Shown here: positions 24,253 through 32,526 of the stretch, piece after piece
Layout of the letters: each line of letters opens with the position of its first letter
Position numbering within the stretch: the first letter of the stretch is position 1
Assembly: GCA_017634575.1 (NCBI GenBank)
Contig: JAGBND010000039.1
Span: forward strand, 1-50,189
DNA length: 50,189 nt
From: Bacillota bacterium
GTDB lineage: Bacteria; Bacillota; Clostridia; Lachnospirales; Bianqueaceae
Direction of reading: 5' to 3'
Made by a program: the position numbers and the translations under genes
Notes under the pieces: model-generated
Databases searched by the model: none
What the model saw: the letters and a program-made list of their open reading frames with translations, nothing else
Told to the model about the DNA's origin: nothing

Positions 24253-25182
24253 TTACTGGAATAATGGCGTCGAATAATATCTGTCTCCACTATCCGGCAG
24301 CAGGGCAACGATGGTTTTGCCCTTGTTTTCCGGCTTTTTCGCATAGGCGATGGCGGCGGAGAGGCTGGCTCCGGAGGAGATGCCTACGGAGATGCCTTCT
24401 TTTCTGGCCAGAAGGCGGGCGGTTTTGAAGGCTTCGTCGGCGGAGGCCTTGTAGACTTCATCGTAGATGCCGGTATTTAATACTTCCGGAACAAATCCGG
24501 CGCCGATGCCCTGAATTTTGTGAGGGCCGCCATGGCCTTCGGAAAGTACGGGGGAATCCGCAGGCTCCAATGCGACAATCTTCACGGCGGGGTTTTGCGA
24601 TTTCAGGTATTCACCTACACCGGTCAGGGTGCCGCCGGTTCCGACGCCGGCGATGAAGATATCCACCTGTCCATCGGTGTCCTTCCAGATTTCGGGTCCG
24701 GTGGTCTTTCTGTGAATTTCAGGATTCGCAGGATTCACAAACTGTCCGGGGATGAAGCTGTCCGGAATTTCCTTAGCCAGTTCGTTGGCCTTTGCAATCG
24801 CGCCGCTCATTCCCTTGGAGCCTTCCGTCAGGACAATCTCGGCTCCGTAGGATTTCAGAATATTCCGGCGTTCTACGCTCATGGTTTCAGGCATCGTCAG
24901 GATAATGCGGTAGCCCTTGGCGGCGGAGATGGCCGCCAGGCCGATGCCGGTGTTGCCCGAGGTGGGCTCTATAATGACGGATCCTTCCTTTAAAAGGCCT
25001 TTCTCTTCCGCATCCTCGATCATGGCCTTGGCAATGCGGTCCTTAACGGAGCCGGCTGGATTGAAATATTCCAGCTTCACCAGAATACGGGCTTCCAGCG
25101 CCAGTTCTTTTTCCAGATTGACGGGCTCGACCAGAGGAGTGTTTCCGATTAAGCCTAAGGTTCCCTGATAAATGTTGGACAT
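24253..25182 (-). CDS. cysK: cysteine synthase A (O-acetylserine sulfhydrylase)
   Basis: 309 residues, ATG preceded by AGAAGG. The PLP lysine is about residue 47 in PAGSVKDR, the substrate loop is [12 protein letters not shown] and the PLP-phosphate loop is [10 protein letters not shown]. Length and order are those of CysK: O-acetylserine plus sulfide gives cysteine, in the cytosol. It lies 154 bp downstream of metY on the same strand with no strong terminator between, so both are probably read from the attenuated promoter at 27.0 kb. Structured repeat copy 3 follows its stop codon. Confidence 0.96.
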
Positions 25183-25336: not shown

Positions 25337-26623
25337 TCAGGCCAGTGCCGCAAAGCCTTTCTCCAGATCAGCGATAATATCGTCGATATGCTCCGTGCCG
25401 ATGGAGAGACGGATCGTGCTCTGATGGATTCCCTGATCTTCCAGTTCTTCGGCGGAAAGCTGGGAGTGCGTCGTGGTGGCTGGATGGATCACCAGACTTT
25501 TTACATCGGCTACGTTAGCCAGCAGGGAGAAGATTTCCAGGGCATCGATGAATTTCCAGGCTTCTTCCTTGCCGCCTTTAATATCGAAGGTAAAAATGGA
25601 GGCGCCTCCGTTGGGAAAATATTCCTGATAAAGATCATGCTGCGGATGATCCGGCAAAGAGGGGTGATTCACCTTTTCCACCAGCGGATGATTCGCCAGA
25701 TATTCCACCACCTTTTTGGTGTTTTCGGCATGCCGTTCCAGTCGGAGGGACAGGGTTTCCACGCCCTGCAGCAGCAGGAAGGCATTAAATGGTGAAATGG
25801 CAGCGCCTGTGTCGCGCAGCAGAATGGCCCGGATGTAGGTGGCAAAGGCTGCCGGTCCTACGGCATCTGCAAAGGAAATGCCATGATAGCTGGGGTTCGC
25901 TTCTGCGATCGGCGCGTATTTACCGGCCGCCTTCCAGTCAAACTTGCCGGAATCGACAATGATGCCGCCTAAGGTGGTGCCGTGTCCGCCGATGAACTTG
26001 GTAGCGGAATGAACGACAATGTCTGCGCCGTATTCGATGGGGCGGATCAGGTAAGGAGTGCCAAAGGTGTTGTCAATGACCAGCGGAATCTGATGGGCAT
26101 GCGCAATGTCCGCCAGGGCCCTGATGTTGGGAATGTCACTGTTGGGATTCCCCAGCGTTTCAATATAGATCGCCTTGGTTTCAGGACGGATGGCGGCCTC
26201 TACTTCTTTCAGATTGTGGATATCCACAAAGGTGGTGGAAACGCCGTATCCGGGAAGGGTGTGGGCGAGCAGGTTGTAGCTGCCGCCGTAGATGGTTTTC
26301 TGCGCCACGATATGCTCACCCTGCTGTGCGAGGGCTTCAATGGTATAGGTGACGGCGGCGGCACCGGACGCAACGGCCAAGGCAGCTACGCCGCCTTCCA
26401 GCGCGGCCAGACGTTTTTCCAGCACATCCTGGGTGGAGTTTGTCAGCCTGCCGTAAATGTTGCCGGGATCGGCGAGACCAAAGCGGGCTGCGGCATGGGC
26501 AGAGTTGTGGAATACATAGGAAGTGGTCTGGTAAATGGGAACGGCTCTGGAATCGGTAGCCGGATCAGCCTGTTCCTGTCCTACGTGAAGCTGCAGGGTT
26601 TCGAATTTATATTGGTTACTCAT
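25337..26623 (-). CDS. metY: O-acetylhomoserine aminocarboxypropyltransferase / sulfhydrylase
   Basis: 428 residues, the usual length of MetY and longer than MetB/MetC (about 380-400). The ribosome site GAGGAGG precedes ATG by eight bases. The PLP lysine is about residue 209 in VVHSATKFIGGHG. ETLGNP and the opening TLQLHVGQEQADPATDSRAVPIYQ (residues 9-32) are also MetY-like. It makes homocysteine (and possibly cysteine) from O-acetylhomoserine and sulfide in the cytosol. It is the first full gene after the Cys/Met leader and attenuator, and cysK follows. Confidence 0.95.
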   Translation of the reverse strand: MSNQYKFETLQLHVGQEQADPATDSRAVPIYQTTSYVFHNSAHAAARFGLADPGNIYGRLTNSTQDVLEKRLAALEGGVAALAVASGAAAVTYTIEALAQQGEHIVAQKTIYGGSYNLLAHTLPGYGVSTTFVDIHNLKEVEAAIRPETKAIYIETLGNPNSDIPNIRALADIAHAHQIPLVIDNTFGTPYLIRPIEYGADIVVHSATKFIGGHGTTLGGIIVDSGKFDWKAAGKYAPIAEANPSYHGISFADAVGPAAFATYIRAILLRDTGAAISPFNAFLLLQGVETLSLRLERHAENTKKVVEYLANHPLVEKVNHPSLPDHPQHDLYQEYFPNGGASIFTFDIKGGKEEAWKFIDALEIFSLLANVADVKSLVIHPATTTHSQLSAEELEDQGIHQSTIRLSIGTEHIDDIIADLEKGFAALA

Positions 26624-26715: not shown

Positions 26716-26750
26716 CAAAAAAACCGGGAGCGGTCAAAAGCTCCCGGGCA
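26716..26750 (-). terminator. attenuator-like terminator between leader peptide and metY
   Basis: Read on minus: CCGGGAGC (26747-26740), loop, GCTCCCGG (26731-26724), then a run of seven T. It stands 56 bases past the stop codon of the leader peptide and about 90 bases before metY. Its 5' arm (TGCCCGGGAG, 26741-26750) is perfectly complementary over 10 bases to leader codons 12-15 (26857-26866), the arrangement expected for a terminator/antiterminator switch. Confidence 0.85.
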
Positions 26751-26805
26751 ACATGGCATATGTAAACAGGTGGAGGAATGAAAGGCTTTTATTCTGGAAC
26801 CTGAT

Positions 26806-26901
26806 TTACTTTATGGGAACATCGACGCACGCCGACGCGTCCCCCGCCACTGTACATGCCCGGGAGTACGGCATTCGACAATACATCAACATAGATAACA
26901 T
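26806..26901 (-). CDS. 31-residue Cys/Met leader peptide, candidate attenuator uORF
   Basis: A short frame with an excellent ribosome site (AGAAGGAG seven bases before the ATG). It encodes 31 residues starting MLSMLMYCRMPYSRAC, with Cys at 8, 16 and 25 and Met at 1, 4, 6 and 10. It lies behind a consensus promoter and in front of a terminator and the sulfur genes metY-cysK. Cys content plus the 10-base complementarity between codons 12-15 and the terminator arm suggest translation-coupled attenuation: a ribosome stalled at Cys8 would leave codons 12-15 free to block the terminator (inference). The downstream half (CTVAGDASACVDVPIK) is not simply Cys codons and may act as a nascent peptide or carry RNA structure. 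Confidence 0.75.
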   Translation of the reverse strand: MLSMLMYCRMPYSRACTVAGDASACVDVPIK

Positions 26902-26993
26902 GTTCGTTCTCCTTCTTTGAAAAATCTGTTTGAATTCTTTCCCTGGACCTGTCCGAGCATCCTTTGCGGATTCGTCAGATCGAGGATGAATGC

Positions 26994-27032
26994 ATCTTAA
27001 CATATAAAACCTACTATGTCAATAGGAATAAT
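26994..27032 (-). promoter_or_regulatory. promoter of leader-metY-cysK with embedded Rrf2-type operator
   Basis: Read on minus: consensus TTGACA (27017-27022), 17 bp, TAAGAT (26994-26999). The -35 box is the N6 of CCTA-N6-TAGTA (27012-27026), an element also present at the sufC and rrf2 promoters. The surrounding 29 bp (27004-27032) match the sufC site at 20 of 29 positions. A protein bound here would cover the -35, so repression is expected. Confidence 0.78.
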
Positions 27033-32088: not shown

Positions 32089-32526
32089 TTATATGACGAA
32101 ACTATTGTTGCTCCGTTCCTGCTGCTGGTCAATTAGATCCTGCAGCGTGACAGAGCCCAGATAATCTCCGATGAGCTGGTCCAGCTTGGTCCATACGGGC
32201 AGAGTGGCGCAGTCCGCCTGCCTGGCGCATAGATTTTTCTCGGTCGACAGGCAGGCTACCGGTGCCAGCGAACCCTCCGTCGCTTTCAGGATTTCTCCCA
32301 GCGTATAGGCAGCGGGTTCTCTGGAGAGACGATAGCCCCCCTGAAAACCGCGAACCGTGCTAAGAAGGCCGAGGCGATTTAAGGTGGGTATAATCTGTTC
32401 CAGATATTTTTTGGAAATATCCTGCCTTTCTGCGATGTCTTTAAGGGCTACATATCCCTCTCCCTGGTTCTGTGCGAGATCCAGCATCAATCGGAGCGCA
32501 TATCTGCCCCTGGTAGAAATCATCAT
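32089..32526 (-). CDS. Rrf2 family regulator, IscR-like
   Basis: 145 residues from the ATG at 32526 behind GGAGG; the frame opens 26 codons earlier without support. The winged helix opens MMISTRGRYALRLMLDLAQN and includes the recognition region SKKYLEQIIPTLNRLGLL and GGYRLSR. Three cysteines at about 92, 100 and 106 match the Fe-S ligand cluster of IscR (92, 98 and 104 in E. coli), so an Fe-S sensing form is likely, in contrast to the cysteine-free CymR. It precedes the suf operon. Related operators at its own promoter, the suf promoter and the cysteine-gene promoter suggest one regulon. Confidence 0.9.
   Translation of the reverse strand: MMISTRGRYALRLMLDLAQNQGEGYVALKDIAERQDISKKYLEQIIPTLNRLGLLSTVRGFQGGYRLSREPAAYTLGEILKATEGSLAPVACLSTEKNLCARQADCATLPVWTKLDQLIGDYLGSVTLQDLIDQQQERSNNSFVI

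Follow-up and report, generated by a model that had tools for sequence, protein, structure and literature searches.

The leader that precedes metY-cysK in this Bacillota genome is very probably a ribosome-mediated transcription attenuator, which would follow the logic of trp/his-type systems and read the supply of charged tRNA-Cys. The preliminary description of this DNA had proposed ribosome-mediated attenuation keyed to cysteine, and the proposal is supported by a translated frame, a conserved cysteine codon (Cys8), covariation between a strand of the leader and the terminator, the sulfur genes downstream, and folding of the RNA beyond the footprint of a stalled ribosome. Judged from sequence, the testable features of a leader-peptide transcription attenuator all appear to be present, and switching by ribosome position is predicted from modelled folds. 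In the cell, cysteine limitation would be expected to turn the operon on, with methionine perhaps contributing.

The element lies on the minus strand of the window (the whole stretch of DNA analysed, 50,189 nucleotides), where it precedes metY-cysK and follows a suf-like gene cluster, the latter identified by reading of the open reading frames, with family tests covering the aminotransferase class V and the ABC ATPase. The promoter, strong ribosome site, 31-codon frame and terminator were all found at the positions given in the preliminary description (Table 1). The frame encodes MLSMLMYCRMPYSRACTVAGDASACVDVPIK and contains, as had been claimed, Cys codons at positions 8, 16 and 25 and four Met codons among the first ten (1, 4, 6 and 10). 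The perfect complementarity noted between ten leader bases and the 5′ arm of the terminator was likewise recovered: CTCCCGGGCA (26866-26857, from the last base of codon 12 to codon 15) pairs with TGCCCGGGAG (26750-26741), and the resulting 10-nt duplex has a folding energy of -21.0 kcal/mol. Scanning for promoters gave one consensus match against a mean of 1.3 in shuffled sequence, and scanning for terminators gave two terminator-like sites against 1.0 expected. Neither scan is significant alone, and the case therefore rests on comparison with relatives.

Table 1. Features of the metY-cysK leader and associated elements in the window.
Feature	Position	Strand	Basis
Operator-like box CCTATTGACATAGTAGG, inverted repeat overlapping the -35 hexamer	27010..27026	-	exact; conserved in homologs
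Sigma-70-type promoter TTGACA-17-TAAGAT, TG ahead of -10	26994..27022	-	position relative to leader kept in relatives
Ribosome binding site AAGGAG	26909..26914	-	7 nt 5′ of leader ATG at 26901
Leader ORF, 31 codons (coordinates include stop codon)	26806..26901	-	ORF list; homologs known
Cys8 codon TGT, predicted sensing codon	26878..26880	-	Cys conservation in homologs
Strand A UCGAAUG, last base of Cys8 to codon 10	26872..26878	-	conserved core; would be masked by a ribosome stalled at Cys8
Predicted protector hairpin, AUGCC 26874-26870 with GGCAU 26860-26856	26856..26874	-	RNA fold, window only
Strand B CUCCCGGGCA, antiterminator 5′ strand within leader ORF	26857..26866	-	covaries with strand D
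Second antiterminator strand ACAGUGGCG, partner 26758-26751	26845..26853	-	window fold and family swap test
Internal leader hairpin H2	26815..26843	-	window fold and family swap test
Strand D UGCCCGGGAG, terminator 5′ arm and antiterminator 3′ strand	26741..26750	-	folding; covariation with strand B
Intrinsic terminator, stem 26747-26724, U7 tract 26723-26717	26717..26747	-	fold, -17.1 kcal/mol
metY, O-acetylhomoserine/O-acetylserine sulfhydrylase	25337..26623	-	TIGR01326, 620 bits, above cut-off
cysK, cysteine synthase A	24253..25182	-	TIGR01139, 449 bits, above cut-off
Rrf2-family regulator gene, candidate partner of the box	32128..32520	-	PF02082, 136 bits

Searching related genomes for the leader upstream of cysK/metY, a check suggested with the original proposal, recovered it in seven other genomes of the same family and at about 190 further loci. 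Relatives were found by DNA search with the leader region followed by reading of upstream regions. Protein matches to metY were present in 53 of 58 related genomes, and the same layout was found 5′ of metY in three genomes of the same genus (G003, G005 and G006) and four of the same family (G008, G013, G015 and G018). Leader homologs thus precede metY in 8 of 19 same-family genomes, counting the genome under study; 11 of the 18 same-family relatives searched gave no leader match. An exact search of public genomes with the first 30 leader bases gave no match, and in whole-region DNA searches only the core was conserved at a distance. Across the eight same-family leaders this core is invariant, TGTCGAATG-N5-CTCCCGGGC, with the terminator 5′ arm then beginning GCCCGGGAG; Cys8 is kept in all eight, and Cys16 is replaced by Gly, Tyr or Phe in four. 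The metY leader of G017, MGKDFEKLVRENFRFGRMCRCK, has TCGAATG adjoining TCGATGT and no strand B; it is possibly decayed or a different version.

The pattern TCGAATG-N5-CTCCCGGGC occurred in at least 118 contigs of a collection with one genome per species, and at least 102 matches, including those of nearby relatives, were kept after filtering for a downstream terminator arm. Those removed for want of such an arm lay mostly in protein-coding genes of unrelated phyla; matches falling within mnmG or other coding sequences, from Proteobacteria, Acidobacteria and others, were set aside as chance. By record title the kept matches belong to Lachnospiraceae, Oscillospiraceae, other Clostridia and two Anaerovibrio (Negativicutes); single actinobacterial records among the matches listed came from Coriobacteriaceae, Eggerthellaceae and one titled just "actinobacterium". 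A covariance model added variants in 14 of 295 genomes of the order and 19 of 341 of the class (the weakest matches of the class search were rejected as not real), and in one bacterial family it found the leader in 75 of 115 genomes, with one to five copies each. The genome under study, which is 78% complete, carries one copy. One further locus (L097) has tandem cores at a distance of 127 bases, and the sequence between them is masked. In total 198 distinct homologous sequences were collected, mostly from Clostridia with some from Negativicutes and Coriobacteriia, and a terminator hairpin is present in 189 of them. Given this recurrence in relatives, sequence comparison places the leader-terminator arrangement far beyond chance.

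The leader frame has the hallmarks of translation, with a start codon and ribosome site in 191 of 198 homologs compared to 10 and 18 for the other two frames. Numbering codons upstream from the conserved CGA, position -1 (Cys8 in the window) is Cys in 95% of non-redundant members (representatives less than 80% identical) and position -2, Tyr in the window, is Cys in 77%, although matches from the covariance model carry some bias towards the Cys-codon columns. Among the pattern matches, where the first two bases of the codon lie outside the search pattern, the Cys8 equivalent is Cys in 89 of 94. Cys at any other position reaches 0-23%, with the position of Cys16 at 23%, and Met is found at -3 in 68% of members and at -4 in 34%. 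Cognate codons therefore occupy the control position, the window having Cys at -1 alone and most relatives having two. The recommended comparison of synonymous changes with Cys-codon conservation showed that N-terminal residues drift (21 synonymous versus 105 non-synonymous changes, spread evenly over codon positions, in 31 independent close pairs) while Cys8 is kept. The idea of cysteine-keyed sensing accordingly stands for Cys8 and falls for Cys16 and Cys25: Cys16 is unlikely to be the sensing codon because it is Cys in only 23% of members and because a ribosome stalled there would cover the antiterminator strand, leading to termination.

To model the switch, RNA was folded from the front edge of the ribosome while the A-site codon was moved along the leader, in the window and in 94 members. 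With Cys8 in the A site the predicted probability of the antiterminator (pairing of strands B and D) was 1.00 in the window and 0.90 on average in the 94 members; with codon 10 in the A site it fell to 0.37 and 0.17, respectively, and beyond codon 10 it was 0 by construction, since B is covered. Cys8 is the last codon leaving B free for front edges from +12 or +13 to +14 or +15, the codon after it still being permissive at +10 and +11, and the footprint result in the window was robust over front edges of +10 to +15 nt. Strand D is common to the antiterminator and the intrinsic terminator, which are thus mutually exclusive. Once the ribosome had reached the stop codon, the terminator was strongly favoured in the window (0.85, versus 0.00 for B:D), whereas the family average was less clean (terminator 0.36 versus antiterminator 0.55), such that termination in many members must rely on kinetics. 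Without translation, the leader at equilibrium likewise favours B:D (0.58 in the window, family mean 0.70). Ribosome position is therefore predicted to decide the structure, cleanly in the window and less so at the stop codon across the family.

Further helices surround this exchange. In family swap tests a second, flanking antiterminator helix scored -7.74 versus -6.88 kcal/mol (sd 0.17) and a hairpin corresponding to H2 scored -13.53 versus -10.72 kcal/mol (sd 0.24). The structure that would hold strand B in reserve is not uniform across the family. A consensus protector, in which A pairs with a downstream strand C and B with a G-run, was paired in 78% of cells compared to 36-47% when slid, while the window is predicted to use another, in which codons 10-11 lie against the 3′ half of B and sequester half of that strand. 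A ribosome stalled at Cys8 would cover the protecting strand in either case. RNAalifold gave no useful consensus on the core alignment because the search pattern fixes one side, and the count of named structures was used instead.

That the principal signal of the same attenuator is methionine, or methionine and cysteine together, is unlikely but deserves weight. Met codons are frequent at -3 and -4 and stand at codons 4, 6 and 10 of the window; stalls at -3 and -2 also free strand B in the folding analysis; and the targets include metY and MetQ/MetN-type transporters. Against this, the Cys codon at -1, although not part of the fixed core, is under stronger constraint than any other codon upstream of that core; with a front edge of +13, no stall beyond -1 would leave B entirely free. 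A third of members lack the Met at -3, and stalling at Met10, which lies within strand A, would cover part of B. We have high confidence in Cys8 as the main sensor and moderate confidence on whether methionine also counts; co-sensing of methionine beside cysteine is possible in view of its frequency at -3 and the antitermination predicted for a stall there.

The pairing of strands B and D also bears on the nature of the signal. With the two strands located independently (D from the folded terminator), the mean was 9.22 of 10 pairs compared to 8.89 ± 0.03 when D was shuffled among sequences, a procedure that ignores kinship, and 0 of 1000 shuffles scored as high. Position 10 of the duplex has undergone double changes (A-U in 114 sequences, G-C in 20, U-A in 17 and C-G in 2), position 8 has changed from G-C to A-U in six sequences, and position 7 shows a double change in one (L308). 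The preliminary description had suggested that the C-terminal half could make the leader a nascent-peptide sensor. On such a reading a CRMxxSRA sequence in the exit tunnel would sense cysteine, SAM or another metabolite and stall the ribosome. Most members do share CRMxxSRA at the peptide level, but the idea is not supported and is very improbable. Covariation with the terminator arm extends to the third base of the Ala codon. In three sequences (L273, L278 and L302) the spacer is one base longer, placing strand B in another frame (CRMLKFPGN), and B is kept and still pairs with D; L277 resembles a fourth such case that the automatic register missed. In a subfamily in which only CGGGCU pairs (L280-L287, L294, L295, L301 and L305) the usual Ser codon is freely Ser, Glu, Thr, Leu, Arg or Pro. 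Since pairing is kept when the frame or the Ser changes, the SRA motif arises as a by-product of strand B. Residues at the N-terminus are unconstrained, the C-terminal half of the leader is variable among homologs, and peptide conservation independent of RNA structure, expected of an arrest sensor, was not found. These comparisons indicate that the core is under selection for RNA pairing and not for the peptide. A CGATGTT motif near the leader end (26818-26824, minus strand) forms part of VDV in the window, whereas many relatives translate it as RC-stop, and it may thus be kept as RNA; a search for a pairing partner of CGAUGUU found weak pairing and none that was convincing.

A metabolite-binding riboswitch or T-box with an incidental short frame would account for a long RNA core conserved across two phyla, which is unusual for a leader peptide, yet this reading is scarcely credible. 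At the gathering threshold Rfam gave no match in the window or in 16 homolog loci, in agreement with the earlier statement that the window holds no SAM riboswitch or T-box, and below threshold the region gave chance-level matches only. Moreover, the frame is open with a ribosome site in one frame only and the Cys codons are fixed within it. A chance arrangement, in which an ordinary short frame happens to precede a terminator that is constitutive or under protein control, would agree with the near-shuffled numbers of promoter-like and terminator-like sites; its probability is practically nil given 198 distinct homologs with covariation, conservation having already refuted chance.

Taken together, these results support a model of cysteine attenuation in which transcription would start at the promoter carrying the operator-like box, with a ribosome trailing RNA polymerase into the leader. 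Under a shortage of cysteinyl-tRNA, this ribosome would stall with Cys8 in the A site, its footprint masking CGAAUG and five further bases, the strand that otherwise keeps B in the protector hairpin, and its front edge ending just short of B. The freed B would then pair with the terminator 5′ arm, such that no terminator forms and metY-cysK is transcribed. When cysteine is plentiful, the ribosome would pass over B to the stop codon, allowing the terminator arms to pair and transcription to end.

As expected of an attenuator, the genes downstream belong to the cognate pathway, namely metY, cysK and Met/cystine-type transporters. The first downstream gene was called in 92 cases: metY in 49, binding proteins of NlpA/MetQ or SBP_bac_3 type in 24, cysK in 7, ABC permeases in 7, MetN-like ATPases with a NIL domain in 3 and others in 2. 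Thus 90 of 92 first genes fall into metY, cysK, binding-protein, permease or MetN-like ATPase clusters, although the calls were automatic and some true first genes may be overlooked. At L062, L087 and similar loci the leader stands ahead of a lipoprotein that fuses an SBP_bac_3 domain to an NlpA (MetQ-type) domain (assigned at L087 by sequence and clustering), perhaps one protein for two sulfur substrates. At L065, L072, L074 and similar loci a MetQ-type gene under the leader is followed by an iron-containing alcohol dehydrogenase and then a 184-residue protein with no Pfam match.

The operator-like box CCTATTGACATAGTAGG recurs within four mismatches upstream of 180 of the 198 homologs, 96 times exactly, compared to 0.3% in shuffled sequence. 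In the window it is the sole match with up to three mismatches, and it is the sole exact copy in the genome. The Rrf2-family gene of the window lies upstream of the suf-like genes, and at one homologous locus (L015) an Rrf2-like gene is divergent from the leader, with CCTATTATATAGTAGG in front of that gene. We infer that the box is an Rrf2-type operator, bound by Rrf2. Box and attenuator appear together in nearly every member, as if travelling as one cassette. Tentatively, box, attenuator and Cys leader might form a single cassette that responds to Cys and Met codons together and is connected with an Rrf2-type repressor; this cassette might have been reused before several sulfur genes and moved among Clostridia, Negativicutes and Actinomycetota of gut and rumen, replacing S-box control there; we regard this broader scenario as possible rather than probable.

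Comparison of the leader peptides with NCBIfam and Pfam gave nothing meaningful, and a literature search, with subscription journals mostly outside its coverage, found no description of the leader motif or the operator box. The leader thus appears to define an unannotated family of cysteine attenuators that precede genes for sulfur amino acids in many bacteria of gut and rumen. Membership of the family serves to predict the transporters and enzymes of a cysteine regulon, and would let annotators name hundreds of short frames absent from the family libraries searched.

In Bacillota, control of sulfur amino acid genes is usually attributed to S-boxes, T-boxes and CymR-type repressors. A SAM-I riboswitch (S-box) before metY has the same position and target as the present leader; it senses SAM directly, has no leader frame and is absent in the window. 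In two genomes of the same order a SAM-I riboswitch precedes metY instead of the leader (L026, 1273-1373; L027, 1335-1435), and the sensing system has been swapped. The trp/his-type attenuators of Proteobacteria and Actinobacteria share a leader frame with regulatory codons, exclusive antiterminator and terminator, and cognate genes downstream. In contrast to these, the present family has one to three Cys codons only, an antiterminator strand inside the leader frame with sequence conserved across two phyla, and a shared operator-like box. A 2010 survey considered leader-peptide attenuators in Bacillota a new and isolated finding (PMC2965389); the Bacillus leader before hisS/hisZ described there is likewise such an attenuator, but with His codons, other genes and another sequence. 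Cysteine codons in a short upstream frame with a terminator and predicted ribosome-mediated attenuation are also found in the uORFC-8-2 motif before cysS of Rhodobacterales, which has tandem Cys codons 14-15 and an intrinsic terminator (PMC8632094). By that description it is confined to Alphaproteobacteria and cysS, and the present family differs in taxon and gene. Mycobacterial polycysteine frames before cys genes are cysteine-responsive, as is predicted here, and are reported to act by translation attenuation (Canestrari et al. 2020, as cited in PMC13236596). In the predicted mycobacterial candidates, runs of Cys codons lie close to the stop codon and a conserved terminator hairpin is lacking (PMC1262725), whereas the present Cys codons stand at the head of a structured core followed by a terminator hairpin in nearly all members. 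With cysteine leaders known or predicted in mycobacteria and Rhodobacterales, the kind is known, while the present family, its taxa and its gene set appear to be new.
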